NCBI GenBank assembly: GCA_902612005.1
Contig: CACMCA010000005.1
Location: forward strand, 1-64,000
Length of the DNA: 64,000 nucleotides
Origin: an uncultured Prochlorococcus sp.
GTDB taxonomy: Bacteria > Cyanobacteriota > Cyanobacteriia > PCC-6307 > Cyanobiaceae
Direction of reading: 5' to 3'
Shown here: positions 25,918 to 56,654 of the stretch, in pieces
How positions within the stretch are numbered: the stretch's first letter is position 1
How the letters are laid out: every line of letters begins with the position of its first letter
Notes under the pieces: model-generated
Told to the model about the DNA's origin: nothing
The model's database searches: none
Seen by the model: only the letters and a program-made list of their open reading frames with translations
Translations under genes and position numbers: made by a program

Positions 25918-25956
25918 CGGGGCGTGGCGCAGTTTGGTAGCGCGGGTGACTTTGAG
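25918..25956 (+). pseudogene. truncated 5' half of tRNA-Pro
   Basis: cggggcgtggcgcagtttggtagcgcgggtgactttg matches intact tRNA-Pro at 26882 then diverges in the anticodon loop. Confidence 0.85.
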
Positions 25957-25968
25957 ATAATTTTATAT

Positions 25969-26610
25969 CTAGGTAATAACAAGTCCTACTGCTCTTGAAA
26001 GAGTTAATCCAAAGATATCTAAAACTACAAACCCATTAAGAATTCGAATCATTCGGGCCACGTCTGTTTCACAAACACCATGCTCTGTCGTATCGCTAAC
26101 AACAATAGAAGCGGTTTTTGCAAAATAACTAAATGCAGTTGGCTTTTTATCAAAAGTAATCGCTTCTTTACCTTTGCCTATTCTTGATAAATGATTCAGT
26201 CTCCAGTACCACCATGAAAATCCTATCAATACTATTGGAACAAATAAAACTAATTCAACTAGAAGTAAAACTGGATCTTTAAGCGGTGAAACTAGAAGCA
26301 AATTCATCGATACAAGTTCCATAAACCATGCAAAGCTCAAAATTGTGCCATAGATATCACTAGCCAATCTTGATTCCTTACCCAAAAGTCCCCAAATTAT
26401 TAAACCAATAATAAAAATCAAAAATATAGCTCCTAGAGGATGTTCATAGTTAGTAAATGAATCCAAAATTAGATGTATATTTTCTAAAAGTTTTTTAACT
26501 GGGGAGTCTTCAACATCATCAAGGTTTAAATTCCTGTCAAAAGAGACTGAAAAGAAGAAAGCTACCGTGAGGATATATATCTCCAGTGGTTTAAAAATTC
26601 TTTTAACCAT
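25969..26610 (-). CDS. multi-pass membrane protein, unknown
   Basis: Several TM segments; abuts truncated tRNA junction. Confidence 0.65.
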   Translation of the reverse strand: MVKRIFKPLEIYILTVAFFFSVSFDRNLNLDDVEDSPVKKLLENIHLILDSFTNYEHPLGAIFLIFIIGLIIWGLLGKESRLASDIYGTILSFAWFMELVSMNLLLVSPLKDPVLLLVELVLFVPIVLIGFSWWYWRLNHLSRIGKGKEAITFDKKPTAFSYFAKTASIVVSDTTEHGVCETDVARMIRILNGFVVLDIFGLTLSRAVGLVIT

Positions 26611-26881
26611 TAAAAAAAATAATTACAATACTATAAATTAAGTTATCTAATAAAAAGATTAAATTAATACAGTTTAGAACCGCGACGTAAAAATTAAATT
26701 GCTTTATTTATTTATTAAGGCTTCACTAAAGTTACATATTTATTTCTGGCGACAAAACGCTCATTTCTCTAGAGACAAAAAAGCGGCAAAAATTATTTTC
26801 AAGCCTCAAAAGTGATTTTTTATAAAAAATTTAGCAATTTGGTCTTTTATAGATGTCTGTTATGAATTAAGATCTTATGAG

Positions 26882-26955
26882 CGGGGCGTGGCGCAGCTTG
26901 GTAGCGCGGGTGCTTTGGGAGCACTAGGTCGCAGGTTCGAATCCTGTCGCCCCGA
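26882..26955 (+). tRNA. tRNA-Pro(UGG)
   Basis: CGGGGCG/CGCCCCG acceptor, loop TTTGGGA (anticodon TGG), GTTCGAATC T-loop. Confidence 0.95.
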
Positions 26956-27068
26956 TCAGTCATACCAACGGATTAGAAATAATATTGCTTGTCTCATATT
27001 GCGAAAGGGGAGCTAGAGGGGGAGCTAGAGTACAACCAAAGCGATCGTGGATTACTTTTCTAGTGCCT

Positions 27069-27596
27069 TTAACCGTTGCAATCAAATTTCGATTGTATTC
27101 TTCCGCCAAAACTATTAGTAGCAGAATAAACGATAACTCCAGTTCGCATTTGATCAAGAATACTATTTACCTCTTTGAAGCTACTAGGATCTTTAAGACT
27201 TGCCTTTAGGATCTCTTTACACATAATCATCTTCCCAAGAAGTGCGTCCTGTTTTGCTTGTTCTTCAGCTCTTCTTCTTTTTTCCTCAGCTTTTTTCTTT
27301 TCTTTGGCTTCTTTTATTACAGCTTCTTTCTTAAATTTTTCTGTTAAGTAAGGATTAGTAATCTTGGCTTTATCACTTTCACTTTCAAGATAAGAACTCC
27401 AATCATTCTCAAGCTCCTTGCAAGCTTCGATTGAACCATTATTGCATTCCTCTATTAAACGCTTAACCTCTTTGCCACCCCATATAGAAGATACTATTAC
27501 TAACAAAATCAAGCCAAATAAAAACCTATACCTTTTCTTTTGATGAAACTTTCTTTCGTCTTTCTTTTTTTCTTCTTTCTTCTTTTCGTCACCCAT
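27069..27596 (-). CDS. single-TM charged hypothetical
   Basis: Lys/Glu-rich N-terminus, TM FLFGLILLVIVSSIWGG, coiled-coil-like middle. Confidence 0.55.
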   Translation of the reverse strand: MGDEKKKEEKKKDERKFHQKKRYRFLFGLILLVIVSSIWGGKEVKRLIEECNNGSIEACKELENDWSSYLESESDKAKITNPYLTEKFKKEAVIKEAKEKKKAEEKRRRAEEQAKQDALLGKMIMCKEILKASLKDPSSFKEVNSILDQMRTGVIVYSATNSFGGRIQSKFDCNG

Positions 27597-27631
27597 AACT
27601 CTAAATTTCTATTTATATAGAAAAGAATACT

Positions 27632-27744
27632 TTATTCTGCTTCTACATCAATAATTCGTTTACCTTCCAACGCATTTATTCTCTCTTCTTGAAATTCAAT
27701 AGCTTCTTTAATTTATTTAATAGGTGCAAGTAGTAAGCGTTTTA
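27632..27744 (-). pseudogene. decayed secreted-protein gene beginning KRLLLAPI with in-frame stop
   Basis: AAACGCTTACTACTTGCACCTATTAAATAA... reads KRLLLAPIK*IKEAIEFQEERINALEGKRIIDVEAE*. Confidence 0.55.
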
Positions 27745-27993
27745 TCAAAATCTTAAATCACATCTATTAGCGTAATTTTTGACTTCTCTTTTAAGACTAC
27801 TTGAAGTCGTACCATATATTTCAGGAGAATTAGCTGCAAGTATTGCCATTGAAACCATAGTGCAAGCCATATCTTTATTACCCACATTAAAATTCATATC
27901 AGCAGCATTAAGGCTGTCATTAACATGAGTATTTGCATTAACAGCAGTGGGTAAAGCGAGGACTGCTAGTAGTGGGAGTAGTAAGCGTTTCAT
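27745..27993 (-). CDS. secreted small protein
   Basis: Signal peptide MKRLLLPLLAVLALPTAVNA. Confidence 0.6.
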   Translation of the reverse strand: MKRLLLPLLAVLALPTAVNANTHVNDSLNAADMNFNVGNKDMACTMVSMAILAANSPEIYGTTSSSLKREVKNYANRCDLRF

Positions 27994-28478
27994 TAAAACA
28001 TAGTTTTCTTAGGGGTTGATTTTATACAAGTTCCCCTGCTTTCTAAAATAATTGCACCTCCTAATAATTTAGCTTGTCTAAAAATAGAACCATCAATTCT
28101 ACTAATCTCATAAACATCTGTATTTTTTTCATATTCTTTATATCCCCCACTAGGATTAGAAATTAAAATAGATTCTGGCTGAAAATTAACAAAAGCTAGT
28201 TTCTTTGTTAAACCACTATGAGAAAAATATACAGACCCTTTTTGATCTTCTTCGTTAAGAGTAAATTTAATAATTGATTGTTTTGTACTTTTTCCCCAAT
28301 CAGTAAATGTTGAATTAGGGTTTTCGACCACCGTTATTTTTCCGTTAATAAGTTTAGATTCGCCTGCAGAATAATTTGACCTATTTTCACTAAGATCGCA
28401 AGTTAAATATGTAGGTGAAGCAATCGTTTCAACAGGCAAAGCGAGAGCAGCTAATAAAGGTATTAAAAATCTTTTCAC
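27993..28478 (-). CDS. secreted protein, unknown
   Basis: GTG start VKRFLIPLLAALALPVETIA; the supplied N-terminal extension is translation of the upstream repeat element. Confidence 0.6.
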   Translation of the reverse strand: MKRFLIPLLAALALPVETIASPTYLTCDLSENRSNYSAGESKLINGKITVVENPNSTFTDWGKSTKQSIIKFTLNEEDQKGSVYFSHSGLTKKLAFVNFQPESILISNPSGGYKEYEKNTDVYEISRIDGSIFRQAKLLGGAIILESRGTCIKSTPKKTMF

Positions 28479-28508
28479 AAAAAAGGAGCTAATTAACACA
28501 TATTGTAG

Positions 28509-28521
28509 ATCGACTGTCAAT
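28509..28521 (-). repeat. dyad element ATTGACAGTCGAT (copy 1)
   Basis: atcgactgtcaat. Confidence 0.75.
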
Positions 28522-28619
28522 AATTACTCCTTAATCAAACGCTATAAAGTACTATAGGAATTACGGACGTTACGAAAGAAATCTTAAAATTGATTGATAT
28601 GAATGACGTTTCGAGATAT

Positions 28620-28692
28620 GGGGCCATAGCTCAGCTGGTAGAGCACCTGCATGGCATGCAGGGGGTCAGGGGTTCAAATCCCCTTGGCTCCA
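28620..28692 (+). tRNA. tRNA-Ala(GGC)
   Basis: GGGGCCA/TGGCTCC acceptor, cctgc-atGGCat-gcagg anticodon arm, GTTCAAATC T-loop. Confidence 0.95.
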
Positions 28693-28951
28693 TTAAATTT
28701 TAGTATTGATAGCAATATATTCGAGCGATTATGACCAAGTAGTTCAATAAAAAAATTAGATGAGTTATTGATGATTTAAATTATCGACAAAACATGGTTT
28801 ACGGAATTATAAAAGAAAGATCAGCTCCATCCTTCTCTTATTCAGTTCAGAGCCTTCCATTTCTAATTAGTCCCTTACAGGAGCTTTCATAGAAGCAAAA
28901 GTAAATTTTTTGATATAAATTTTTAAGGCATTAAGCACTAAAGTTTAATTA

Positions 28952-29191
28952 TCAAAGAGCTAAATCGCAATAATTTCCAGCACTCATATTTACTGAATTT
29001 TGTGAAGTAATTCTTTCTAAGTTTTTATTTAAATTATTAGCTTGATTAGAAGCCGAATAAAATCCAACTGTTAAAAAAACAAGTGTGATAGAAGTTACGA
29101 TTGTGCTGAACTGGATAACTCCATCTGCCAGAATAGCTGGAGTTTTTAGAGATAAAATAGCTTTTTTTCTCTTTGCTTTTGATTTTGCCAC
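28952..29191 (-). CDS. small TM protein
   Basis: Basic N-terminus, APAILADGVIQFSTIVTSITLVFLTVGF; resembles 38982..39266 product. Confidence 0.5.
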   Translation of the reverse strand: MAKSKAKRKKAILSLKTPAILADGVIQFSTIVTSITLVFLTVGFYSASNQANNLNKNLERITSQNSVNMSAGNYCDLAL

Positions 29192-29478
29192 AATGTTAAC
29201 CTTTACTTAAATTTTTCTTAAGTTATTTTTAATAATAAGTAAAAAAAATAATTTGTCAGTTAGTAAATTTACTCATTTTGATGAGTCGTTCGAATCGAGA
29301 AATCTTAATATTTTCAACTATTAATTTATATTGACCTTAAAATTAATAGCTTCTTTAAATTTTTAAGCGTCTTGACTTTCTTTAAACAAATTTATTTTTA
29401 AATTAATTACCTCTTGATTTTCGTTACTTATTTTAAATTTATCGACTAAATATTGACGCCTTATTTAGCTGATTTCAT

Positions 29479-29778
29479 ATGAACAAATTAAATATTTATA
29501 AAACAAAAACAATAAACTTTTTAAGAAAATATTCATTAAATATTTCTATGGCTATTGTAGCTATCAATTCATATTCTATTTCAAGTACTCTTAAAGAAAA
29601 TAGAAATATTTTAAATGAAAATGTAAAGTTACTAAGATATAAAGAGATTTGCGCGAGATATTATACTTTTTATTCTTCTGGAACTGATGAGCAGGCAGAA
29701 AGTAGAGAGGAATTGACAGCTTCTTTGTTAGATGTTCCATTGGAGCTTGTTGATACTTTTTGCCAAAGGATGATATAG
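29479..29778 (+). CDS. small membrane-anchored hypothetical
   Basis: 99 aa ORF, one hydrophobic segment. Confidence 0.45.
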   Translation: MNKLNIYKTKTINFLRKYSLNISMAIVAINSYSISSTLKENRNILNENVKLLRYKEICARYYTFYSSGTDEQAESREELTASLLDVPLELVDTFCQRMI

Positions 29779-29994
29779 ATATTTTTCTCTTAATAAATTG
29801 AGAATTTTTAAAAAGTTTTTTGCACCGTATTGAAAATGAAATGTATTATTTTAAATTTTTGCAGATAGTTATGATTTAATTAAACGTTTATAATTTTATT
29901 ATCGTATTTTTTAAAATTAAATTTAAAAATGGTTTAATTATCAAAATATATGATGTAATTTTAAGTAAATTTAAAAAAATTATATATTTTTAAA

Positions 29995-30786
29995 ATGTCA
30001 ATTAAGGGTCTAATTCTATTCGATATAGATGGAGTTATTAGAGATGTTTCGAATAGCTATAGAATGGCAATTATAAAAACAGTAAAGCATTATTGTTTTT
30101 GGGAACCAAGTATTTTCGAAATTGATGAAATAAAAAATGAAGGGATTTGGAACAATGACTGGGATTTAAGTTTAGAACTAATAAAAAGACACATAGTAAG
30201 CAATAGATTAACTATTACACCTCCAACAAGGAAAGAATTAGTTTGCCATTTTGAAAATTTATATTTTGGTTTGAAATCACCTCTAGAATCAGAAATTTGG
30301 ACAGGATTTATAAAAAACGAAAAAATTCTTATCGAGAAAAATATTTTTAGCGAACTAACTAAAAATAGTATTTTGTGGGGTTTTGTAAGTGGAGCAGAAA
30401 GGGCATCAGCTGAATATATATTAAAGAATAAAATAAAACTTCTGAATCCTCCGCTAGTCGCGATGGGAGAAGCTCCAGATAAACCTGATCCTAAAGGTTT
30501 TATTTATTTATCTAAAAAATTACTTAATCAAGAGCTTGGAAGATCAGCTCCTCCCATCGCATATATTGGAGATACGGTAGCAGATGTTAAAACAATTATT
30601 AATTCAAGAAAAATAATTCCAGAGCAGAAATTTATAAGTCTTGCTGTCGCTCCACCACATTTGCATTTAAAAAACAGTTTAAAAGCGAGAGAAATATATG
30701 AATCCAAACTAAAGATTGCAGGAGCAGATTTCATACTGAATTCAGTAAATGATATAAAAAATATTTTTAAAAATTTATTTTTTTAA
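29995..30786 (+). CDS. HAD-superfamily (IA) hydrolase
   Basis: LILFDIDGVIRDVSNSYR motif I; YIGDTVADVKT motif IV. Confidence 0.8.
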   Translation: MSIKGLILFDIDGVIRDVSNSYRMAIIKTVKHYCFWEPSIFEIDEIKNEGIWNNDWDLSLELIKRHIVSNRLTITPPTRKELVCHFENLYFGLKSPLESEIWTGFIKNEKILIEKNIFSELTKNSILWGFVSGAERASAEYILKNKIKLLNPPLVAMGEAPDKPDPKGFIYLSKKLLNQELGRSAPPIAYIGDTVADVKTIINSRKIIPEQKFISLAVAPPHLHLKNSLKAREIYESKLKIAGADFILNSVNDIKNIFKNLFF

Positions 30787-30799
30787 AATAAATTAGTAT

Positions 30800-31354
30800 T
30801 TAGATTAAATCATAAACTTTAAAAAAAAAGGCTATCGTAGCTGAATCTTTTATTACTCCAGAGTAAATTAAATCTCTGATTTTCTCTTTACTAAAAAATA
30901 AAACTTCGATTTCCTCATCATCATCTTTATCTAATAAATTAGCCTCTTTAAAAATATTGTTAGCTAAAAATAAATGTATTCTTTCATTAGAATAAGATGG
31001 CGACTCAAAGATTTCTCCAAAATATTTGAAACTTTTTGAAGAATAGCCAGTCTCTTCTATGAGTTCTCTTCTTATAGTCGATATTGGCTTTTCATTATTT
31101 TTAATAGTACCTGATGGGAATTCTAAAATATATTCTTCAACTGGAAATCTATATTGATTTAAAACAATTATCTTTTCTTGTTCATTCTTAGCTATCACCA
31201 TTGTTGATCCATTATGGTCAATAGAACCATATCTCCCTATGGAGGAATTATTTAGCTTTAAATGTTCGATTTTTAAATTTACATTTTTAGTGGTTTCAAA
31301 AATTTCTCTCTTAAAAAAAATATGATTTTTTCTGGATTCGGAATCTGATTTCAT
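30800..31354 (-). CDS. NUDIX hydrolase
   Basis: Nudix-box-like IRRELIEETGYSSK, preceded by EFPSGTIKNNEKPISTI. Confidence 0.85.
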   Translation of the reverse strand: MKSDSESRKNHIFFKREIFETTKNVNLKIEHLKLNNSSIGRYGSIDHNGSTMVIAKNEQEKIIVLNQYRFPVEEYILEFPSGTIKNNEKPISTIRRELIEETGYSSKSFKYFGEIFESPSYSNERIHLFLANNIFKEANLLDKDDDEEIEVLFFSKEKIRDLIYSGVIKDSATIAFFFKVYDLI

Positions 31355-31410
31355 TATTTCATATTATATAAATTATTAACCTTTATTTTAATAAGATATA
31401 TTTTAAGGAA

Positions 31411-31989
31411 ATGGCACATCTTAATTTGATGAAAAATATAAATTTAAAGGATAAAAAAGAATTCTTTAGAATGATTAATTATTTATTTTCTCAGAAAGGT
31501 AAAGAACAATATGCAGGTGAGGAAATAACAGTCTCAGATCATATGCTTCAATCCGCTACTCATGCGGTAAATAACGGTTTATCAGATGAAATCATTATCG
31601 CATCCCTTTTTCACGATGTAGGTCATTTACTTCTTGATCAAGATATCTATTCTAAATATAATGATCATGAAAAAATAGGTGCAGAATTTATTAAGGACTT
31701 TTTCTCAGATAAAATTTTTAATTGCGTAAGAATGCATGTTGATGCCAAAAGATACCTATGTACAAAAGATTCTTCTTATTTTGCAAAACTTTCATCAGCT
31801 TCAGTAGCATCATTGAAGGTTCAGGGAGGTGAAATGAATAAGGAAGAAATAAAAAGTTTTGAAAAAAATCAGTTTTTTAATGAAATTTTATTGGTTAGAG
31901 AATTAGATGAAAAGGCAAAAGATACTAATTTTAAAAACCTAGAATTGGAATTTTTTATTACAAAAATTGAAAGTATTTTTTTAAGCTAA
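31411..31989 (+). CDS. HD-domain protein of the phosphonate-operon / PhnZ-like diiron oxygenase type
   Basis: QYAGEEITVSDHMLQSA, LFHDVGHLL, NDHEKIGAEFI, RMHVDAKRYL, RELDEKAKD. Confidence 0.75.
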   Translation: MAHLNLMKNINLKDKKEFFRMINYLFSQKGKEQYAGEEITVSDHMLQSATHAVNNGLSDEIIIASLFHDVGHLLLDQDIYSKYNDHEKIGAEFIKDFFSDKIFNCVRMHVDAKRYLCTKDSSYFAKLSSASVASLKVQGGEMNKEEIKSFEKNQFFNEILLVRELDEKAKDTNFKNLELEFFITKIESIFLS

Positions 31990-33134
31990 AAATTTAAATA
32001 TTCTTCAGCTATTTCTTCTGCGAGTCCAAATGAATGGGTCATTCCAGCACCGCCCAAACAATTGACTATTAGGATTGAATCATCAACTTCTTTTATTAAC
32101 TCAGTTCCTCCTATTAACTTAGGATATATTCCGTTCCATCTTGAGGCTATCTCAATTGAAGGAAGACTTATAAAACTCTTAACTTGATCGACAATAAATT
32201 TATTTATTTCTTCATTATTAAAAGGATCAAAAGTTAATCCATACTCATGAGAATCTCCCAAAATAATTTCACCTAATCCATTTTGAGAAATCATAATATG
32301 TATTCCGTTTTCAATTGCAAAAGGGAACTCTTTTTTATATCTATCTTTTAAAGAATTAATTGATGAACATTCAGCAAAAGAATCATAATGCGTTAATGTA
32401 AAACCTGAACAAAGTGCAGGTCCTAACTTAAAGTTTTTAGGTTGACTAATTGTTCTTAACATTTGAAGCTTGCTTTTGGTTGTATGAAATTTCTTATATT
32501 CTTGAGGAAATAATGATTCAAAATCGGCTCCTGAACAAATTATACTTTTTTTTGTATTAATCTTATTACCATCACTTGTAACTACTAAATTTGGCTCAAC
32601 ACTTGAAACTGTTGTACCAAAATTAAATTCAACTCCATATTTATTCTTTAATAAAATTGTAATCTTTTTAATTGCCTCTCTAGGATCAACAATCATTTCA
32701 GTAGGACTCCACAATCCTCCAATTAATCCTTTACTTAAAACATAAGGGCTAAGATTAAAGATTTGCTTTATTGAAAGTAATTCTGCACTTGAATTTTTAA
32801 ACTTAGACAAATCACAATATTCTTTCATAACCTGAAATTCATCTTCTTTATATGCCAAAATAATTGAACCAACTTGATCTAAAAAAAAGTCGCTGCTTTG
32901 GGCTGTCTCAATCCATATTTTTCTAGAATTAAGAGCTCTACTATATAGCTTTCCAAAAGGTTGACCAATTGGCCATATCATTCCAAAGTTTCTTATTGAA
33001 GCTCCAATAGCTTTTTCTTCTCTCTCAAAAACTTTTACACTAAAACCTCTTTTTGCAGCTGACAATGCATGAGCAAGACCTACAATACCTGCTCCAATAA
33101 TAGCTATATCAGTTTTACAATTTTTAGACATCAA
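31986..33134 (-). CDS. FAD-dependent oxidoreductase (DadA/HpnW-like, phosphonate-linked family)
   Basis: DIAIIGAGIVGLAHALSAAKRGFSVKVFERE dinucleotide fold, RNFGMIWPIGQP; C-terminal GGAGMTHSFGLAEEIAEE. Confidence 0.75.
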   Translation of the reverse strand: MMSKNCKTDIAIIGAGIVGLAHALSAAKRGFSVKVFEREEKAIGASIRNFGMIWPIGQPFGKLYSRALNSRKIWIETAQSSDFFLDQVGSIILAYKEDEFQVMKEYCDLSKFKNSSAELLSIKQIFNLSPYVLSKGLIGGLWSPTEMIVDPREAIKKITILLKNKYGVEFNFGTTVSSVEPNLVVTSDGNKINTKKSIICSGADFESLFPQEYKKFHTTKSKLQMLRTISQPKNFKLGPALCSGFTLTHYDSFAECSSINSLKDRYKKEFPFAIENGIHIMISQNGLGEIILGDSHEYGLTFDPFNNEEINKFIVDQVKSFISLPSIEIASRWNGIYPKLIGGTELIKEVDDSILIVNCLGGAGMTHSFGLAEEIAEEYLNF

Positions 33135-33855
33135 TAAATTGATTTAAGTAAGATGAAAATTCATTTAAGGAAGAAAAAAGTCCATCATTTTTATAAGCCT
33201 CAAGCTGTTCTTTTGAATGAGTTCCATTTGTGACTGCAAAAGATTTTAAACAGCCTGCACTTACTCCTGATTTCAAATCAGATGGGGTATCACCTATAAC
33301 AACTACTGATTTAGGATCATCAATTCCTAAAACATACATTGCCTTTTGAATCATATATGGAGAAGGACGGCCTTCGTTATTATAAATTTCTGAAGGGGTT
33401 ACTGATACATCAATAATTGAAGATGAGCCTCCCACATAATTATCATTAAGTCCTAAATCCCATCCAAGATTTTTAAGTATTATGTTTGTTACTTTTCTAT
33501 AAAAACCTGTGTTTAATCCAATAAAAATATTTTTTGTTTTTAAGGATCTAAATAACTCAAGACAGCCTTCTGTTGGTTCAATATCAGTAGATAAATAGTG
33601 ACTTTCTAAGATATCCTTAAAAGTTTCAAAAGATTTATTCACATAAGTTTCAAATTTATTACTACCTTTACCAATTCTCTCTTCCCATAATAATTGAAAG
33701 ACCTTCTTTTTTGGAATGCCATGTAATCGATCAACTTCATTTTTATTAGTATTTAAACCTGTTCTTGAGGCGGCCTCTAAAAAACATCCAGTAACTTCAT
33801 TTTTATCCTTCACAGTAGTGCCAGCCATATCAAAAATAACAAGTTTTATTTTCAT
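33124..33855 (-). CDS. phosphonoacetaldehyde hydrolase-like (PhnX-like) HAD hydrolase
   Basis: LVIFDMAGTTVKDKNEV; GRPSPYMIQKAM; VVIGDTPSDLKSG. Confidence 0.8.
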   Translation of the reverse strand: MKIKLVIFDMAGTTVKDKNEVTGCFLEAASRTGLNTNKNEVDRLHGIPKKKVFQLLWEERIGKGSNKFETYVNKSFETFKDILESHYLSTDIEPTEGCLELFRSLKTKNIFIGLNTGFYRKVTNIILKNLGWDLGLNDNYVGGSSSIIDVSVTPSEIYNNEGRPSPYMIQKAMYVLGIDDPKSVVVIGDTPSDLKSGVSAGCLKSFAVTNGTHSKEQLEAYKNDGLFSSLNEFSSYLNQFIDV

Positions 33856-33906
33856 ATTTTTTTTTCTTCATAATATTGATTTTATTCATTTAAGTTTAAG
33901 TAGTGT

Positions 33907-35667
33907 TTAAGTTTCTAATGGATTAATCCAAACAGAAGATTTTTTCGAAACATTCCTAGAAGTAAATTCATAAATTAACCTTACGAATAGACTTGTTAAA
34001 ACGATAAGAGTAGACATTGCAGCCGCTGATGCTGTATCTCCTGCATCATCCATGTTTACAATTGAAACAGATGAAACTGGTATTTTTGCTGGGTAGAGAA
34101 AAATAATAGCTGATACAGTTATCATTGAATTAACAAAATAATAACTTCCTATCTCTAAGATTGTTGGGAGTGATAATGGTATCGTTATTCTTAAAAAGGT
34201 TTTATAAAAAGGAACTTTTAAAGACTCTGATACCTCTTCAAATTCCTTATCAATTTGTTTTAAAGTTGTTGTTGCTGATATAAAACACACTGTGAAAAAA
34301 TGTATGATATTAGCTAATACAAGGATTCCCATTGTTCCATAAAGTAATGAGAAAGGATTAAATATTTGAAAATCTAAAAAGGGTACAGAGAAAGAAGGTT
34401 TATTAAAAAAAAGAATATAGGATAAGCCAAGTACTAAGCCAGGAATTGCAATTGGTAATGTTGAAAAAAAGTATATTAGCATTCTTATTTTTTTTAATGG
34501 TTTAAATTTTTCTACTAAATAAGCTGTAAAAAATACAAATATAGTCCCAAATATTGCAGTATAAATTGACATGAAAACAGTATTAAAATAAGGTTCATAA
34601 CCATTTCCAGCTACATTTGAAAATCTAAAGTTTTGTAATGATAGAGAAATATCGTATGGCCATATTTTTATTAGCGAGGCTAATACTATAGATGAAAAGA
34701 CCCCAATTACTAAAATCAAAATTAAACTGCAAAAAATAAACATTATTGAATCAACTATCAGATTCTTCCTTGGTTTAAACGGTATAGATTTTCCCGAAAT
34801 TAGAGATGCTTCATTCTTTTGGAAATTTTTATCAATTAGAAAAGCCAAAATTGAGGGTACTAAAAGATAGATGCTAATAGTTGCTCCCATGGCAAAATTT
34901 TGTTGACCAACAACTTGTTTATAAATATCTGTAGCAAGTACATTAAAGTTCCCCCCAACAACTTTAGGAACTCCAAAATCCGTAAAAGATAAAATAAAAC
35001 ATATAAAAAATGAATTCATCAGTCCATATTTGATATTGGGTAAAGTAATAGTTAAGAATTTTCTAAGTGGAGATGCTTTCAGAGATTCTGCTGCTTCATA
35101 TAATCTTTGATCACTAAGATTTAATGCTGACACAAGAATAATTAGAGCTTGAGGAAAGCAGTAAAAAATTTCACCTATAATTATTCCATTAAAACCATAT
35201 AGATTTATATCAAATCCAGGAATAGTCCCAAAAAATCCTTGAGTAATTAAACCTTGTTTTCCAAAAATATAAATTAAACCTATGGCAACAGCCAGGGGTG
35301 GAATATATAAAGAAAATAAGCTAAAAGTATTGAAAAATTTTTTTAATGGTAATCTTGTCCTCGTGAGAGCATAAGCATAAATAAATCCAATTAATACAGA
35401 AAAAAAAGTCGTAGTAATTGCCACCTTTAAGCTATTTATAAAGGATTGCGTTAAGGATGGATTTTGAATATAGTTTATAAAATTTTCTAATCCTATAAAA
35501 TTATTTTTGTTATCACTAAAGCTTTTTAAGAATAATGGAAGTAAAGGAATTATGATAAAAAAGCTAACTAATATAAATACAAAAATAATTAAAATTCTTA
35601 ATAATAAGATGTTAAAACTTTTGTTAAAATTTTTTTTAAAATACATTGACTTATAAATTACTTTCAA
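33907..35667 (-). CDS. ABC transporter permease, fused two-domain (2-AEP/iron type)
   Basis: ~12 TM segments, two binding-protein-dependent permease (EAA) loops. Confidence 0.85.
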   Translation of the reverse strand: MKVIYKSMYFKKNFNKSFNILLLRILIIFVFILVSFFIIIPLLPLFLKSFSDNKNNFIGLENFINYIQNPSLTQSFINSLKVAITTTFFSVLIGFIYAYALTRTRLPLKKFFNTFSLFSLYIPPLAVAIGLIYIFGKQGLITQGFFGTIPGFDINLYGFNGIIIGEIFYCFPQALIILVSALNLSDQRLYEAAESLKASPLRKFLTITLPNIKYGLMNSFFICFILSFTDFGVPKVVGGNFNVLATDIYKQVVGQQNFAMGATISIYLLVPSILAFLIDKNFQKNEASLISGKSIPFKPRKNLIVDSIMFIFCSLILILVIGVFSSIVLASLIKIWPYDISLSLQNFRFSNVAGNGYEPYFNTVFMSIYTAIFGTIFVFFTAYLVEKFKPLKKIRMLIYFFSTLPIAIPGLVLGLSYILFFNKPSFSVPFLDFQIFNPFSLLYGTMGILVLANIIHFFTVCFISATTTLKQIDKEFEEVSESLKVPFYKTFLRITIPLSLPTILEIGSYYFVNSMITVSAIIFLYPAKIPVSSVSIVNMDDAGDTASAAAMSTLIVLTSLFVRLIYEFTSRNVSKKSSVWINPLET

Positions 35668-36757
35668 ATAATTTAATTTTTTCTTTTTTTAATTTAATAT
35701 CTATAAAATCTCCAATTTTTAAATTATTAGAGATCACTTGATTAGAAATAACGTCTACAAAAATATTTTCTTCTAGCTTAGATTCTAAAACTACTGTTAA
35801 TCTAAAAATTGTTCCTAAATAAGTAATTTCTTTTATTTTTACTCTAAGAATATTTTCTTCCTTTTCTATATTTTTTCTGAACTTAATAATTTCAATATCT
35901 TCAGGTCTAATACCAAGCAAGCAGTTTTCTAAAAATGAATATTCTGTATTCTGTGAAATTAAAAATCTATTATTAAGATAATAAAAAACACAATTTTTCT
36001 TATCATATTTACCTTTTAACAAATTCATCTTCCCTATGAAATCAGCAACAAACGGTGTAATTGGATTTTCATACAATTCAAAAGGTGTTCCAATTTGAGC
36101 AATATGACCTCTTTCCATGACTACAACTCTATCTGCCATAGATAAAGCTTCAGTTTGATCATGGGTAACCATGATAGTAGTTAAATTAAGTTTCTTTTGT
36201 ATTAGTTTAATTTCATTTCTTAATTTTGATCTAACTTGAGCATCTAGGGCTGAAAGAGGTTCATCTAATAAAAGTAAACCAGGAGATAATGCCATGGCTC
36301 TCGCCAAAGCCACTCTTTGTTGTTGACCTCCAGATAATTGAGATGGAAATTGGTCAGAATATTTTTCTAATCCAACCAAACGAAGTAAATTATTAGTTCT
36401 TTTTTCAATTTCTTTTTTATTTATTTTTTTATTTTCAAGACCATAAGCTATATTTTGTTTTGCATTAAGGTTTGGAAATAATGCATATGACTGAAAAACA
36501 ATTCCAAAGTCTCTTTTCTCAGTGGGGGAATTAGAAATTAAAAGCCCATCTTGAACAATATCGCCATTTGTTTGTCTCTCTAAGCCAGAAATTATTCTTA
36601 GCAGAGTTGTTTTTCCACAACCACTTGGTCCTAATAAACATAAAAATTCTCCCTTAAAAACATCCAAGTGAATATTTTTCAAAACGAATGTTTCCCCAAA
36701 GTTTTTACTGATATTTTTGATTTCTAAATATTTAAAACTTCCTTCTTTTTTAATCAT
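35651..36757 (-). CDS. ABC transporter ATP-binding protein (2-AEP/iron type)
   Basis: GPSGCGKTTLLRIISGLE, LSGGQQQRVALARAMA, LLLDEPLSALDA; TOBE-like C-terminus. Confidence 0.9.
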   Translation of the reverse strand: MIKKEGSFKYLEIKNISKNFGETFVLKNIHLDVFKGEFLCLLGPSGCGKTTLLRIISGLERQTNGDIVQDGLLISNSPTEKRDFGIVFQSYALFPNLNAKQNIAYGLENKKINKKEIEKRTNNLLRLVGLEKYSDQFPSQLSGGQQQRVALARAMALSPGLLLLDEPLSALDAQVRSKLRNEIKLIQKKLNLTTIMVTHDQTEALSMADRVVVMERGHIAQIGTPFELYENPITPFVADFIGKMNLLKGKYDKKNCVFYYLNNRFLISQNTEYSFLENCLLGIRPEDIEIIKFRKNIEKEENILRVKIKEITYLGTIFRLTVVLESKLEENIFVDVISNQVISNNLKIGDFIDIKLKKEKIKLFESNL

Positions 36758-36838
36758 TAAATTTAAAATAATTATTCATCTAGATGATAAATTCCATGAA
36801 TTGCTAATTCATGGAATTTATTTATATGCTTTTAATTT

Positions 36839-37891
36839 TTACTTAGGAGCAGATTTGCCATCATAGCGTTTTGCCCACTCTGCTAGTATTCTCTCCCTAT
36901 TTACAGCAGCCCATTGTAAGTCATTTTTTGCGAGCTGTTTCTCTGGATTAGAAGGGAAACCTTTAGGAAGCGGAACATCAGTTTCAACAGCTGTTATTGC
37001 AAAACTTTTTGCATATTCTCTTGAGACTTCAGGAGAAATTGCCCAATCAAGAAAAGTCTTAGCAGCAGGTTTTATTTTATCTTTTTTGATAAGGGCATTA
37101 GCTTCTACATCCCATCCAGAACCTTCCTTAGGAAAAACAGCCTCAATTGGTTGCCCCATATTTACCTGTTTTACAGCTCTGTAACCAAATGAAACCCCTA
37201 TTGGATACTCTCCTTTACCTGCAGCCTTACAAGGCTTAGATCCAGAATGCATATACTGAGCAATATTTTCATGAAGTGCATCAAGGTAATTCCAACCATC
37301 CTCTTCAGAAGGTAAATTTTGTAATCTTGAAGCTACTGACAAATAACCTGTTCCAGAGGAAGCAGGGTTAGACATAACTATGTGACCTTTGTATTCTGGT
37401 TTTGTTAAATCTGCCCAAGATTTAGGTATTGATAGCCCGTTTTTTTGAGCCTCAATTTTATTAACACAAAAAGCAGAAATCCAAGAATCAATTCCAACCC
37501 ATGAAGGTTTTTTTGCAGGATCCCTAAAGCTTGGTTTAACATTCGAGAGGCCTTTTGGAGCATAACCTTGAATCAAACCTCTATCATTAGCTACTAATAA
37601 ACTTGAAGCAGCTAAACCCCAAACCACATCTGCCTGTGGGTTTTCAGCCTCAGCCAATAATTTCGCAGTAACTATACCTGTTGAGTCCCTAACAATATTA
37701 ACTTCTATATTAGGGTAATCTCTCTCAAAGGATTTTAGATAATTTGGTATTTGGTCATCTTCTAGAGCAGTATAAACAGTAATTGAAGCCTTTTCAGAAC
37801 CTTTTTTACCCCACCACCATGCATTTGCTGAAGGTGCAAGTGCTGTTCCTATAACAGCTGCCCCCATTGCAAAAGAAAATAACTTTTTCAT
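36839..37891 (-). CDS. periplasmic substrate-binding protein (2-aminoethylphosphonate/Fe3+ class)
   Basis: Signal peptide; [45 protein letters not shown]. Confidence 0.85.
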
Positions 37892-50651: not shown

Positions 50652-50712
50652 ATTTATTGATAAAGTCTAAAAATAATTATTTATGCAAATAACTTTTTAT
50701 TTATTTCTAACT

Positions 50713-50930
50713 TTTTAAACTTTGCTTTCAAATTTCTCACTAAAAGAATCAAAAGCATTCTCTAACTCTTTTGTATTGAATCTTGAATAACTTTTTAAAT
50801 GTGTTTCCAGATCATATCCCATGGCATCAGCTATTTGCTTTGGTGCTCTATAAGTTCCATTTTTGTTGATCCTATTGTGAGCAACATAGGCGTATCTATG
50901 CCTGAAAGAATAAGGAGAAACGTCTTTCTC
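50713..50930 (-). pseudogene. tyrosine recombinase/integrase C-terminal fragment
   Basis: VSPYSFRHRYAYVAHNRINKNGTYRAPKQIADAMGYDLETHLKSYSRFNTKELENAFDSFSEKFESKV*; HxxR-type box and terminal Tyr context. Confidence 0.7.
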
Positions 50931-51007: not shown

Positions 51008-51058
51008 TTTTCTTTTTGATTTAAAGTAATAATCATCAGAATCGCAAAGTAATAGTAA

Positions 51059-51346: not shown

Positions 51347-51505
51347 TTCTTTTTGTCCTTGTGTAATATTTTCGAATAGTTAGCAAGGACCAGCGATAAA
51401 AGACCAATGCAAGATACTACTTTATTTACAATAACTCTTGGTAGGTGAGATTCAGTATTAATAGACCTAACCGTTAATAAATAAGTTATTTGCCTCTTAT
51501 TTTAG

Positions 51506-51518
51506 ATCGACTGTCAAT
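51506..51518 (-). repeat. dyad element (copy 4), overlapping a stop codon
   Basis: atcgactgtcaat; last base pairs with TGA of 51518..51730. Confidence 0.75.
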
Positions 51519-51730
51519 CAATAAGCAGCGCCTCCTAAGTCCTCGAGTAATTCATTCTTCTCTCTTTTCTCATACCACTTATTTAAATCTTCATCACTTA
51601 CTGTTCTAAATAAAAATAAGGATATCTTTTCCAAATAATCAGCGATATAAATTCTTGAAATTGGGTTTAGAGAAACATAAATTATGGTAATTAAAACTAA
51701 TAAAAGCTCAACAAGGAGTATGCGTTTCAT
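51518..51730 (-). CDS. 70-aa membrane microprotein, paralogue of 38105..38320
   Basis: NPISRIYIADYLEKISLFLFRTVSDEDLNKWYEKREKNELL. Confidence 0.6.
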   Translation of the reverse strand: MKRILLVELLLVLITIIYVSLNPISRIYIADYLEKISLFLFRTVSDEDLNKWYEKREKNELLEDLGGAAY

Positions 51731-51738
51731 TCAGAAAT

Positions 51739-52308
51739 TTAAATTGAATTTCCTTTTTTGAGCTTTGACGAGGAATCATTTTCTGGAAAAATCTGTTTTA
51801 TATTTTCTGGAAAGAAAAACTCTAATTGCCTCCTTAAATCACCTTCATATAAATAGTCTTTTGTTGAGACTTTAAAAGTATCTCTTACTAATCGAACATT
51901 TATTTTTTCCTTTTTACCTGCCTCATTAATTCTTGATAAAACTAATTTAATTGGCTTATCTTTTGGTCCTTTTATGAGAGAAACAGCTTCATTTAGACCC
52001 ATTCCTTTAGTTGATTTGCCATCTATTTTTATGATTACATCATTTGGTTTAATGTCAGCTGAAGCAGCAGGTGAATCATTTATTACAGATTGAATAGTTA
52101 ATTCAGCATTATCACTATTAAGAAAAAGCCTTATTCCTATCCCAGATATTTCTTTATCTTTTTTGCGAGAAAATTGTTTATTAGTATTCACGCAACCTGC
52201 ATAATCTCGTGCTTCTAAACATTTCTTATGTAATTCATCAGATATTCCAGCATTAACCGTAGTAGGCAAAGCCAGGGCAGCTAGTAATGGGAGTAGTAAG
52301 CGTTTCAT
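51739..52308 (-). CDS. secreted PDZ-domain protein
   Basis: MKRLLLPLLAALALPTTVNA; GIGIRLFLNSDNAELTIQSVINDSPAASADIKPNDVIIKIDGKSTKGM. Confidence 0.85.
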   Translation of the reverse strand: MKRLLLPLLAALALPTTVNAGISDELHKKCLEARDYAGCVNTNKQFSRKKDKEISGIGIRLFLNSDNAELTIQSVINDSPAASADIKPNDVIIKIDGKSTKGMGLNEAVSLIKGPKDKPIKLVLSRINEAGKKEKINVRLVRDTFKVSTKDYLYEGDLRRQLEFFFPENIKQIFPENDSSSKLKKGNSI

Positions 52309-52721
52309 CTAGGAAGTATTCTATTTAATTCGGGATATTCAATTCTTAATTCTTCTATAAATGCATCAACGGTCTTTGATATCTCGTCAGTAGTATTCAA
52401 AATAGAATTTTTATATTTTAGATATTCGGAAACTTGAAATAATTTCATAGTTGATTTTGTTAAAAGTAATGTTGCAAGAGGAGATTTATCTGCCAATTTA
52501 GTTGAAGGAAAATATTTTATAGTTTCAGGATAAGTTTTTTCCATATCCTCAATATAGTCTTCTATCTTTTCATTTAATTCATCATATTTTGATGATAAAA
52601 ACTTTTTGGTATTTAAATATTCAAAACCTGCGAATAAAAAACCAATAGGAAAACTTAAAAATAATATTGAAAGAGAAAGCCTAAGAAGATTTTGGGAAAA
52701 TTTTTCCATAGAAATAATCAA
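52305..52721 (-). CDS. membrane-anchored hypothetical, overlaps PDZ gene start
   Basis: TM SLSILFLSFPIGFLFAGF; 4-nt overlap with downstream gene. Confidence 0.5.
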   Translation of the reverse strand: MIISMEKFSQNLLRLSLSILFLSFPIGFLFAGFEYLNTKKFLSSKYDELNEKIEDYIEDMEKTYPETIKYFPSTKLADKSPLATLLLTKSTMKLFQVSEYLKYKNSILNTTDEISKTVDAFIEELRIEYPELNRILPR

Positions 52722-52825
52722 TTTAATTTATTTAAAACATATCAAGGTTAAAAGTAAGTAAAGCATGTAATATTTTTGCTTTCTTCTTCTGATCTACTGA
52801 AATATTTAATTTTTATAATTTCTAT

Positions 52826-52875
52826 ATCGACTGTCAATCGTATTTAATATAGCGGTGCAATTAGTAAGCGTTTCA
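52826..52875 (-). repeat. dyad element (copy 5) plus orphan signal-peptide-start cassette
   Basis: atcgactgtcaatcgtatttaatatagcggtgcaattagtaagcgtttca. Confidence 0.65.
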
Positions 52876-53268
52876 ATTTTTATTGTTAACTAATCCATAG
52901 ATACATAAAAGAGGATTCACTATTAAAACAATCCAGAAAGGAGGAGGGGGTCCTCCATCAACAATTGTCCCAGCGTTAAAAGTATTAAATAGAGCTACTG
53001 CCAAAAAACAAAACATCAAAGCTAATTCACCTGATAAAACTTTTCTTAAGGAGGCTTTATCTTTAATGGAACTACAAATAATCAATAAAAAACCTATTCC
53101 TAAATTACTAGCAGCTACAACATCTGCAGTACCTCTAACAAGAAGCAATGTTTCACTTGAAGCGTTGCCTGCAATAGTTTCCACTGAAAAAATTAGTAGA
53201 GAAATAATTAACAACCCCAACAGGATATGAAGAACTCCAGTAGTTTTTAAAATATTTTTTAACTTCAT
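52873..53268 (-). CDS. four-TM hypothetical membrane protein
   Basis: Multiple hydrophobic segments. Confidence 0.6.
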   Translation of the reverse strand: MKLKNILKTTGVLHILLGLLIISLLIFSVETIAGNASSETLLLVRGTADVVAASNLGIGFLLIICSSIKDKASLRKVLSGELALMFCFLAVALFNTFNAGTIVDGGPPPPFWIVLIVNPLLCIYGLVNNKN

Positions 53269-53299
53269 AAAAAAAGGAGCTAATTGCCCCTTATTGTAG

Positions 53300-53312
53300 A
53301 TCGACTGTCAAT
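53300..53312 (-). repeat. dyad element (copy 6)
   Basis: atcgactgtcaat; then TACAAT, GGGGCAATTAGCTCC hairpin, T7, ATG 53268 on minus. Confidence 0.75.
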
Positions 53313-53323
53313 CTATTTATATT

Positions 53324-53473
53324 TTAATTCTCATCCACTAACTTTCCTCCATACTCTCTTGCAATTACATCTAAACACCTAAGAATATCCTTATTTTTTA
53401 ATAGATCTGTTTTCTCTAAATAATTAAGGAGAGTTCTTATTTGTTCAATAGTATTTTCTTCTAATTCCTTCAT
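53324..53473 (-). CDS. 49-aa hypothetical
   Basis: MKELEENTIEQIRTLLNYLEKTDLLKNKDILRCLDVIAREYGGKLVDEN. Confidence 0.45.
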   Translation of the reverse strand: MKELEENTIEQIRTLLNYLEKTDLLKNKDILRCLDVIAREYGGKLVDEN

Positions 53474-53476
53474 TAG

Positions 53477-53548
53477 TTTATCTCTATTAGCTCAATCATA
53501 TATCCATCAAGATCATCTACGAAAGCTAAAACTATTGATCTTGTTGCA
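53477..53548 (-). pseudogene. glyoxalase I-like C-terminal fragment
   Basis: TRSIVLAFVDDLDGYMIELIEIN* (glyoxalase-like DPDGxxIEL ending). Confidence 0.45.
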
Positions 53549-53714
53549 TTTGTTTTTTCTTTAGTCTTTCGTATTCAACATGCAGAACACCTAAACGCCA
53601 AGCATCTTTCAATCCTTTTACACCTCCCATTAGGAGTTTTGCATCTGAAGGTGAATGTGACTTCATGCTCAAGAAATCTTTTTGCCAAGATTTTTCATTC
53701 CATTTTTTAGTCAT
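53532..53714 (-). CDS. small hypothetical
   Basis: 60 aa ORF, basic. Confidence 0.35.
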   Translation of the reverse strand: MTKKWNEKSWQKDFLSMKSHSPSDAKLLMGGVKGLKDAWRLGVLHVEYERLKKKQMQQDQ

Positions 53715-53974
53715 TCAACTATCTCCAGTTTATAAACTATATCTTTACAGTTATTAGCTTTGTCCCATTCCCTAGCCCATTCTGTATCTAACATCTTTGC
53801 GAACTCTTCTAAACATGAAACTGTATAAAAGGAATGAGACTTGTGATCATTAATTTTTACTAAATCATAATCAAATACAATTCCATCTCCTTGTTCTTTT
53901 ACCCATTGATCAACAGTCTCTGCATAATCTTTAAAAGAGCAATCAAAGGTGCAAACGATAAATAACTTTTCCAT
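53711..53974 (-). CDS. hypothetical
   Basis: 87 aa ORF preceded by degenerate dyad/hairpin leader. Confidence 0.45.
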   Translation of the reverse strand: MEKLFIVCTFDCSFKDYAETVDQWVKEQGDGIVFDYDLVKINDHKSHSFYTVSCLEEFAKMLDTEWAREWDKANNCKDIVYKLEIVE

Positions 53975-54131
53975 AAAAAAGAGAATTTTATCCTTCCAAT
54001 TTTATATCTAATGTCAAATTAAATCTCACGCAAAACTTACTCAAATCAAGATTAATTAGTCCAAATACGGCAACATTTATTTTTATAAAAATACTGATAG
54101 CAAAATAAGTCTCAGTTATAGCTTAAATCTT

Positions 54132-54181
54132 GCGGGCGCTTTGGGAGCACTTGGTCGTAGGTTCGAATCCTGTTCCCCCTA
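54132..54181 (+). pseudogene. 3' fragment of tRNA-Pro (att-like)
   Basis: gcgggcgctttgggagcacttggtcgtaggttcgaatcctgttccccct vs tRNA-Pro 26882..26955. Confidence 0.9.
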
Positions 54182-54316
54182 CTCTAATAATCCAATTCCT
54201 TGACAGGTTCCCCAGCCTTTTTTTTATTAGTCAAAATATGACCACTCTATTTGTGGTCAAATTGGTTGTTAATTAAAAGGATGTTATTAAAATTATCTTA
54301 ATTACTTAGGAATCAA

Positions 54317-55909
54317 TTGGATAATGTCCTTCTTTTCATAACAGGTGTTTTATCTGGAATTATCGTTGGTTTTATAATTAGTCGTTCTTATTCCAAAAAA
54401 TCAAGAAGTAATGATGGAAGTAAAGAAAGTTTTCTAGAAGAAAATCTATTTAAAGCTGAAAAAAACCTAGAAGAAACTTTATTAGAGCTAAATAATCAAA
54501 AAAAAGAATTAAAAATTTATCAGCATAATACACAAGATTTAAGTGCAAAAGCTGCAATAAAAGAAACAGAATTAAAAGTAGTCTCGCAAGAAAAGATTAA
54601 GTTGGAGAATAATCAAATAGAATTTAAAAAAGATTTTGAATATCTCAGAAATCAAAAGGAATTACTGGGTATTGAAATTGGAGAATTGAAAGAACAAAAT
54701 AAATCACTTACTGAAGAATCAACCCGTATCGAATCTGAAAAAGAGAAATTAGAAGAGATTTGTCAAACGGCTATCAATGATAAAGAGAGCCTTAGAACGG
54801 AAAGGGAAAAACTCAATAATCAAATTGCTGAAATAAAAGAGCAATTAAAATCTCAACAAACGCAAACTAAATTTCTTGAGCAAGCCAAGGCTGATCTAGT
54901 AACACAATTTCGTGCACTAAGTGCAAAGATGCTTGAAGGATCAAAAGATGCGCTTTTAAAAAGGACAAAAGAAGAAGTAACAGAGCCTTTTACAAAACAA
55001 GTTGAAACTCTTCGAAAACAAGTTGAATTATTATCAAAAGATTCAACAGAAAAATTAAGTGCCTTAAGGGAAACAACAATTAATTTAGATAAAAAAAGTG
55101 ATGACGTTAAAGTTGCTGCAATGCAACTTACAAGTGCACTAAGATCACCAAATGTTAAGGGTAGATGGGGAGAAGTTAACTTAAAAAGAATTTTAGAATT
55201 TGTAGGACTTATTAATTATTGTGATTTTGATGAGCAAGTTAGTGTCGAAACTGAAGAGAGTAGATTAAGACCAGATTGTGTTATTAGTATTCCTGGATCA
55301 AGAAGATTAATAGTTGACTCAAAAGCACCTATAGAAAGTTATTTAGATGCTATAAAAGCAACTGATCAAAATCTCCAAGAGAAGGCAGTGGCGGATCATC
55401 TTAAAAAGGTTCGTAGTCATATTGATCAACTAGCTAAGAAGGATTACTCAAATCAATTAAGTGAGATCGGCGAAGTAGTTGATGGAGTGGTTTTATATAT
55501 TCCAGTTGAAGGGGCTCTATCCATGGCATTGGAGCGAGATCCTAATCTATTAGAATATGCATTCGAGAAAAATATAATTCTCACATTCCCTACAAGTCTC
55601 CTCGCAATACTTAAAGGATTTTCTATGACTATCCAAAAAGCTGAAATGACAAAAAATATTAATGAGATACAGCAAATGTCAACAGAACTTTATAAGAGAT
55701 TTTTAGTCTTTGTAGAAAAATTCTCTGACGTTGGTTTAAAAATTTCCAATTTGAATAAATCTTATAATGCTGCTCAAGGTTCTTATGAAAAGAGGCTATT
55801 ACCGCAAGCAAAACGTATCGCAGAATTATCGGGACAAAATAATGAATTTCTCCCTTTATCTGAAATAGATACAAACATAAAAGAATTTAAGTCCATTGAT
55901 AACAATTAA
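54317..55909 (+). CDS. rmuC: DNA recombination protein RmuC
   Basis: Coiled-coil N-terminus; NVKGRWGEVNLKRILE, RLRPDCVISIPGSRRLIVDSKAP. Confidence 0.93.
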   Translation: MDNVLLFITGVLSGIIVGFIISRSYSKKSRSNDGSKESFLEENLFKAEKNLEETLLELNNQKKELKIYQHNTQDLSAKAAIKETELKVVSQEKIKLENNQIEFKKDFEYLRNQKELLGIEIGELKEQNKSLTEESTRIESEKEKLEEICQTAINDKESLRTEREKLNNQIAEIKEQLKSQQTQTKFLEQAKADLVTQFRALSAKMLEGSKDALLKRTKEEVTEPFTKQVETLRKQVELLSKDSTEKLSALRETTINLDKKSDDVKVAAMQLTSALRSPNVKGRWGEVNLKRILEFVGLINYCDFDEQVSVETEESRLRPDCVISIPGSRRLIVDSKAPIESYLDAIKATDQNLQEKAVADHLKKVRSHIDQLAKKDYSNQLSEIGEVVDGVVLYIPVEGALSMALERDPNLLEYAFEKNIILTFPTSLLAILKGFSMTIQKAEMTKNINEIQQMSTELYKRFLVFVEKFSDVGLKISNLNKSYNAAQGSYEKRLLPQAKRIAELSGQNNEFLPLSEIDTNIKEFKSIDNN

Positions 55910-56095
55910 TATACTTTTCAAAGTCCATTTTTATAAATAAAAATTCAAATATTGCTCAAAAAATGTTCTCGTAAATAAATCAACAAATAGATTTTCTTAA
56001 AAGATGTCTTCAAGAGATAATTAAAAGTTACTCTCTTGCCCTTTAGAGCTGATAGATTTATTTCTATTGGCTCTTTTTTGGGAGTGTTTTTATAT

Positions 56096-56142
56096 ATTGA
56101 CAATCAATTTAAAATTGGGAGCAATTAGCTCCTTCTTTATTA
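56096..56142 (+). promoter_or_regulatory. dyad element variant + hairpin leader abutting ATG
   Basis: ATTGACAATCAATTTAAAATTGGGAGCAATTAGCTCCTTCTTTATTATG. Confidence 0.65.
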
Positions 56143-56417
56143 TGGATTTTTTTGATATTGTTTTTAATTATATTTTTAATTTAACTATTACAGTCATTAT
56201 TGGATTATTGCTTAATCGCATGTTGACAGCCTTAATAAGAATAGAAAAAACTCAAACTTTAGCTCTTGCCTATTTAATTAATCCTAATGCAATGCTAGAT
56301 GGAACAAGTAGCGATTTAGTAATTGAGAATGCATTAAAACAGTCGATGAATGCAAAAGGAGAAACCCAAAGAGCGGTTAAATTTTTAAAGAATCTAAAAG
56401 CACTTACGGATGTGTAG
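56142..56417 (+). CDS. single-TM hypothetical
   Basis: MDFFDIVFNYIFNLTITVIIGLLLNRMLTALIRIEKTQTLALAYLINPNA; start after leader element. Confidence 0.55.
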   Translation: MDFFDIVFNYIFNLTITVIIGLLLNRMLTALIRIEKTQTLALAYLINPNAMLDGTSSDLVIENALKQSMNAKGETQRAVKFLKNLKALTDV

Positions 56418-56433
56418 AAAATCTTATAGGTAT

Positions 56434-56482
56434 TGAATGCTTACTACCTGCACCGCCATATAAATATGATCGACAGTCGATC
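56434..56482 (+). repeat. orphan cassette plus perfect palindrome GATCGAC-A-GTCGATC
   Basis: tgaatgcttactacctgcaccgcc...gatcgacagtcgatc. Confidence 0.65.
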
Positions 56483-56613
56483 TTATTTAATTAAAGTCTG
56501 CTATAACCTAATTTTGTTGAAATACTTTGCTATGGTAAATTTCAATTTTTCGACACCACCGAATTAACAGGAGGAAGAATAAAAGATATGGACAACTTAG
56601 TTTTTTTTACAAT

Positions 56614-56654
56614 TGGCATGCAGGGGGCCAGCGGTTAGAGTCCGCTTGGCTCCA
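56614..56654 (+). pseudogene. 3' fragment of tRNA-Ala (att-like)
   Basis: tggcatgcagggggccagcggttagagtccgcttggctcca vs tRNA-Ala 28620..28692. Confidence 0.85.

Follow-up and report, generated by a model that had tools for sequence, protein, structure and literature searches.

How does a stretch of DNA come to carry intact tRNA-Pro and tRNA-Ala genes followed by a partial copy of each, in interleaved order? The stretch in question, hereafter the window, comprises positions 1-64000 of contig C5 in a draft assembly of an uncultured Prochlorococcus (G000; 46 contigs, 88.5% complete), and the original prediction described in it a tRNA-targeted, tycheposon-like island at 25918-56654. Our comparison of the window with loci from about 60 related Prochlorococcus genomes suggests that the tRNA-Pro gene is probably a two-sided accretion site for small mobile cassettes, which push old tRNA halves outward on both sides.

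Pieces of tRNA genes in the window

ARAGORN and a repeat search bore out the predicted intact tRNA-Pro and tRNA-Ala genes and their 3' partial copies at 54132 (90% identity over 48 nt) and 56614 (84% over 49 nt), all on the plus strand, and the interleaved order Pro-Ala-Pro'-Ala' along that strand, where the prime marks a partial copy, is real. The Pro 3' fragment was also recovered against the whole genome (E = 5 × 10−12), and the 15-nt anticodon stem-loop GTGCTTTGGGAGCAC, allowing up to 2 mismatches, matched solely the intact tRNA-Pro and this fragment (0.01 matches expected). At 25844-25957, a whole-genome search added a third tRNA-Pro piece in the window, namely a 5' fragment together with its promoter (88% identical, E = 3 × 10−33). 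This piece explains the start coordinate 25918 of the predicted island; the prediction gave no account of it or of an insertion on the 5' side. The tRNA pieces and the 5'-side (U-type) cassette are as follows.

25844-25917, plus strand: native tRNA-Pro promoter region, now displaced (old P5); shares 85% identity with the one at 26808-26881
25918-25957, plus strand: tRNA-Pro 5' fragment, positions 1-39, clean to 31; the element right arm after it is deleted
25958-26807: cargo of the U-type cassette, with an open reading frame (ORF) of 213 aa at 25969-26610 (minus strand)
26808-26881, plus strand: promoter region of the working tRNA-Pro, 98.6% identical to that of relative G115
26882-26955, plus strand: intact tRNA-Pro (TGG), ARAGORN
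28619-28693, plus strand: intact tRNA-Ala (GGC), ARAGORN
54132-54179, plus strand: tRNA-Pro 3' fragment, matching tRNA positions 25-72
56614-56654, plus strand: tRNA-Ala 3' fragment, 85% identical to tRNA positions 34-74

Another tRNA-Pro 3' fragment lies on contig C2 of the same assembly (L037, G000:C2:42319-42364), and its left arm resembles one in G111 near a tRNA-Ala 5' fragment.

Sorting of tRNA-Pro fragments across the genus

In the relatives, which also have the genes left of apt in common, tRNA-Pro and a string of its fragments come after apt. As the loci of a single genus are related to one another, all p-values given here are descriptive only. In a first set of 23 genomes with one intact copy (the window included), 22 of 22 fragments on the 5' side were 5' pieces and 88 of 88 on the 3' side were 3' pieces. 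In a replication set of 32 further loci, 9 of 9 and 55 of 56 fragments sorted as expected, and none lay on the opposite strand; seven loci were omitted from this count, six with a second full-length tRNA-like copy, which makes them ambiguous, and one without an intact copy. With both sets pooled, 5' fragments were found only upstream of the intact gene (31/31) and 3' fragments downstream of it (143/144), all of them on the strand of the intact tRNA-Pro gene.

The 5' fragments consist of the promoter and the start of the tRNA and nearly all end at or before position 42, and the 3' fragments begin mostly at tRNA positions 25-29. The two classes overlap within the anticodon stem-loop, the presumed crossover site. 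The identity of 3' fragments falls with outward rank in the first set (rho = −0.56, p = 2 × 10−8) and in the replication set (rho = −0.37, p = 0.005); on the 5' side the trend is the same and not significant. The arms beside the core are conserved: the motif TTGCA[AG] lies 22-25 nt into the flank of 29 of 36 5' fragments, against a background of 5.7% for its presence anywhere in 60 nt, and recurs in the replication set (8 of 11), and a TATAGC-type motif precedes 63.5% of 170 Pro 3' fragments. The median unit size is 1.5 kb for U-type and 2.5 kb for 3'-side (D-type) units, and up to 11 3' fragments occur at one tRNA gene.

In seven loci (L063, L115, L121, L124, L130, L133 and L142), one family of element ends together with the tRNA-Pro 3' half makes up a full-length tRNA-like sequence; these sequences are ~90% identical to tRNA-Pro, and several fold like a cloverleaf.

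A U-type cassette upstream of tRNA-Pro

In 13 loci without a 5' fragment, apt and the intact tRNA are 254-266 nt apart, which gives the spacing of an empty U-side site. In the window, the distance from apt is 267 nt to the 5' fragment and 1231 nt to the intact tRNA. The 5' fragment thus stands at the empty-site spacing, which identifies the 5' side as a separate insertion site. Comparison with G115 gives the borders of what was inserted. The apt proteins are 62% identical, and the DNA from apt to the old promoter is 55% and that promoter itself 84% identical; identity then rises to 96.6% over the cassette, 98.6% over the new promoter and 100% over the tRNA, and falls to 42% beyond it. Since this high identity is confined between two tRNA cores, the cassette, the promoter and the 5' half were transferred as one unit, and the promoter at 26808-26881 was apparently brought by the U-type cassette. 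The 213-aa ORF in the cassette has no match in Pfam or NCBIfam.

D-type units, rmuC and recombinase

On the 3' side of tRNA-Pro, the window contains the following features.

26956-27718: left part of a truncated D-type unit, with an ORF at 27069-27596 (minus strand); its left end matches units in G134, G115 and G012
27740-28532: segment with two small secreted-protein ORFs, of which 27740-28007 is 89% identical to a U-side cassette at the tRNA-Pro of G086
29995-37891: phosphonate cargo cluster (Phn-HD oxygenase, TIGR03364 oxidoreductase, PhnX-like hydrolase and PhnU2/PhnT2/PhnS2 transporter; NCBIfam)
50703-50927, minus strand: tyrosine recombinase remnant, C-terminal part, residues 359-433 of the G043 enzyme
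53999-54131, plus strand: conserved right end (left arm of attR) of a tRNA-Pro D-type element, with the TATAGC motif
54180-55986, plus strand: rmuC unit, with rmuC at 54317-55909 directly behind the Pro 3' fragment

The first D-type unit is cut at ~27.72 kb, where sequence known from the G086 U-type cassette at tRNA-Pro starts. The element end at 53999-54131 is 78-86% identical to ends that precede 3' fragments in G038, G136 and G023. The unit behind it matches G136 at 92-100% per 100-nt bin over 54232-55931 and drops to background to the left of the fragment and past ~55990. The original prediction took rmuC for a core gene, which is wrong: the family is encoded in 16 of the 266 genomes of the genus, so that rmuC counts as flexible cargo. 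That a single 27-kb island reaches from tRNA-Pro to Pro' is doubtful, as relatives carry a fragment every 2.5 kb (median) and, in several of them, rmuC lies near a Pro fragment. In one relative (L033, G140:C11:1732-2775), the RmuC reading frame is preceded in frame by a sequence like an integrase N-terminus.

The recombinase remnant is 81% identical to the enzyme of G043 (E = 5 × 10−35), with a second search giving 82% (E = 2 × 10−31). The G043 integrase has 433 aa and begins ~120 bp from a Pro 3' fragment, and integrase domains occur on the D side of tRNA-Pro in G043, G237, G044 and G042. The tRNA-Pro 3' half is also present on 8 viral contigs, of which 6 have the core and the 3' half only, with a relative of the integrase close by; a search of the viral contigs for a U-type junction found none. 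The fragments, the arrays of relatives, the remnant and the matching integrases beside the same core in relatives and viral contigs all support the predicted tRNA-targeted island, although the prediction did not recognize that Pro' belongs to an entire class of such fragments. A weak integrase match in the U-type cassette of G242 was rejected, as it is a secreted beta-barrel-like ORF.

Proposed two-sided accretion at tRNA-Pro

Two-sided accretion would work as follows. A tyrosine recombinase supplied by other elements would cross over in the anticodon stem-loop. A D-type circle would carry the core and the 3' half of the tRNA, so that its insertion rebuilds the tRNA and displaces the old 3' half downstream, and a U-type circle would carry a promoter and the 5' half, so that its insertion supplies a new promoter and 5' half and displaces the old ones upstream. 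One U-type cassette, the truncated first D-type unit and a segment of the Pro array with the Pro 3' fragment and rmuC would then be what survives in the window.

The observations that speak for this account are the sorting of the fragments, their breakpoints, the outward loss of identity among 3' copies, the conserved arms, the occupied U-side site set beside empty ones, and transfer units bordered by tRNA cores, to which the rmuC unit, starting at the Pro 3' fragment in the comparison with G136, adds a second case. Several points weigh against it. The arm motifs were picked after inspection of the first set, and G115 keeps a right arm that the U-type cassette of the window lacks. No excision circle was found, there is no intact integrase in the window, the single Pfam integrase match in the assembly being on contig C15, and no integrase was found in U-type cassettes. 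Because of the latter, we infer that the enzyme acts in trans, and the enzyme itself and the excision circles are likewise inferred. Finally, no TATAGC-type motif occurs in the 60 nt before the Ala 3' fragment, which may thus not mark an attachment junction.

Could the 5' and 3' fragments instead be the two ends of the same insertion, in which one element with a complete tRNA-Pro split the native gene? The window, in which a single 5' and a single 3' Pro fragment flank the intact copy, would fit such a split, as would the pairs in several loci. However, 3' fragments outnumber 5' fragments by 144 vs. 31, several loci have no 5' fragment and yet up to eight 3' fragments, and the identity to G115 stops right after the tRNA, so that the U-type cassette moved without 3'-side sequence; we regard a split as very unlikely. 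Even less credible is that homologous recombination between islands built the arrays alone, with the tRNA pieces as passive repeats: short repeats and cargo common to Pro and Ala islands are indeed frequent, but such recombination does not predict the strict sorting, the fixed breakpoints, the fixed arm distance or the transfer borders at the cores.

An intact tRNA-Ala inside the Pro array

The features around the two tRNA-Ala pieces are as follows.

28533-28618, plus strand: tRNA-Ala promoter region; these 86 nt are also conserved before the tRNA-Ala of 7 other genomes
28694-28740, plus strand: left end of a tRNA-Ala-targeted element, resembling the left end of the 1.5-kb tRNA-Ala element in G205
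56655-58026, plus strand: flank of the native tRNA-Ala site, with EF-hand, sigma factor and 86-aa genes

Past the Ala fragment, a stretch of 1372 nt is 94.9% identical to the one immediately after the intact tRNA-Ala in G086, the closest relative, and by that comparison 56614 is the native tRNA-Ala site. Because the fragment occupies the place of the intact gene in this relative, the intact tRNA-Ala beside tRNA-Pro was probably imported or relocated. The T-arm of the intact gene at 28619 reads GGGG/CCCC, and that of the 56614 fragment and of G086 reads GCGG/CCGC. Other Ala 3' fragments break at positions 23-33, next to the breakpoint of the one in the window (position 34), and this speaks for an attachment junction. 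Cargo of the kind found at 40.5-56 kb occurs at the tRNA-Pro loci of many genomes, and that at 57-64 kb at tRNA-Ala loci. Before the intact tRNA-Ala, homology to the upstream region in G086 proved to be limited to 86 nt. A genus-wide search with 55990-56613 returned mostly dispersed short repeats and no informative context. An RmuC-like start (MDNLVFFTIG) is possibly fused to the Ala fragment near 56590, which is a guess, as no homologue was found.

The intact tRNA-Ala, with its own element end, thus sits inside the Pro array, and the native site at 56614 retains the 3' half only. The most likely reading, which we hold tentatively and at somewhat less than an even chance, is that the Pro array took up a block containing tRNA-Ala and the phosphonate cargo, after which the redundant native tRNA-Ala lost its 5' half. 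The proposal in the original prediction that an element's own tRNA copy released the native one to decay fits the position of the Ala fragment at the intact tRNA-Ala site of G086; the fit falls short of proof, and either of two further explanations could also apply.

In one of these, a single D-type insertion targeted tRNA-Ala, with the gene at 28619 as the left end and 56614 as the right end of a 28-kb element that had acquired a piece of the Pro array (the Pro 3' fragment and rmuC). The likeness of the left end to the G205 element end, the T-arm allele of the intact gene, which is expected to differ from the native one if the 3' half came with the element, and the adjoining breakpoints of Ala 3' fragments all favor such an insertion, but the 40.5-56 kb cargo is found at tRNA-Pro in many genomes and hardly at tRNA-Ala, no attachment-arm motif precedes the Ala fragment, and G086 has only those 86 nt in common upstream of the Ala gene; we consider it rather unlikely. 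It is clearly less likely that the adjacency of Pro and Ala is a chimeric joint and the interleaving not real. The assembly is indeed a draft, homology changes abruptly at 27.72-27.74 kb, and none of the listed relatives has intact Pro and Ala genes within 2 kb. Nevertheless, a plausible tRNA-Ala element end follows the Ala gene, the contexts around both 3' fragments are conserved, and the assembly holds a single intact tRNA-Ala(GGC), as it should if the fragment represents the native copy.

Extent of the flexible region and further repeats

Between 56.0 kb and position 70336, where the contig ends, there was no match in the first four comparison regions and hence no core right border, so that the flexible region extends beyond 56654. 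Small unrelated genes at 27719, 27967, 28481, 40559, 41104, 51478, 52282, 52850 and 53272 have in common an upstream ATTGACAGTCGATC and/or a signal-peptide start MKRLLLPLLA, and similar short repeats match across the genus. Two adjacent outer-membrane-like genes at 22011-23111 and 23277-24365 have identical C-terminal parts, which suggests recent duplication or conversion.

Implications and comparison with known systems

The islands of Prochlorococcus hold much of the flexible gene content of the genus. Extending the accretion model to the genus as a whole is a more speculative step, and we regard it as possible though still less than an even chance: the tRNA gene would be the fixed entry of a two-sided, integron-like array, into which small cassettes without an integrase enter on both sides of the anticodon core via a recombinase in trans, with U-type cassettes supplying an essential tRNA gene with one new promoter after another. 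A two-sided array whose fragments decay outward records the relative order in which genes arrived at a locus, and the 5'-side cassettes point to an ability of mobile DNA to exchange a tRNA promoter again and again. Single tRNA fragments in windows of this kind should accordingly be taken as array entries rather than as ends of one island.

The tycheposons of Prochlorococcus are reportedly tRNA-bounded cargo elements with a tyrosine recombinase and nutrient-related cargo. The window resembles them, by their description only, in genus, in tRNA-bounded cargo with a partial tRNA copy and in nutrient-related cargo, and may differ from them in its 5'-side insertions with promoter replacement. Its recombinase is only a C-terminal remnant, whereas relatives have a recombinase at the same locus; an intact one was looked for in the window and not found, and we therefore call the window tycheposon-like rather than a tycheposon.

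Of the islands in Islander, 3760 have 3' fragments and 159 have 5' fragments, and tandem arrays of at least three are limited to 4 cases (PMC4383910). The signature is the same, with a crossover centred on the anticodon and with 5' and 3' fragments lying upstream and downstream, respectively, and in the window the tRNA is intact and the fragments lie on its strand and on the correct sides. However, Islander requires an integrase per island, which the window does not provide, and most units here apparently have none; moreover, both kinds of fragment here flank one gene, with 3' fragments in the numbers given above. An integrase upstream of tRNA-Phe or tRNA-Cys in picocyanobacteria has been described as distinct from tycheposon integrases (PMC10187409). 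That system likewise places an element upstream of a tRNA, in Prochlorococcus and Synechococcus, but it involves other tRNAs and includes an integrase; in the U-type cassettes here, no integrase was found. The additive island of Methylophilaceae similarly has repeated tRNA 3' ends between flexible genes, namely recurring tRNA-Lys 3' ends, with 20-nt 3' repeats only and no 5' side (PMC10872708). Integrons are compared by their way of working only (IntI and attC were not searched for, and none was noticed): they too have short cassettes with an attachment site, the newest beside a fixed site, and a recombinase supplied separately, whereas here the fixed site is a tRNA gene and entry occurs on both of its sides.

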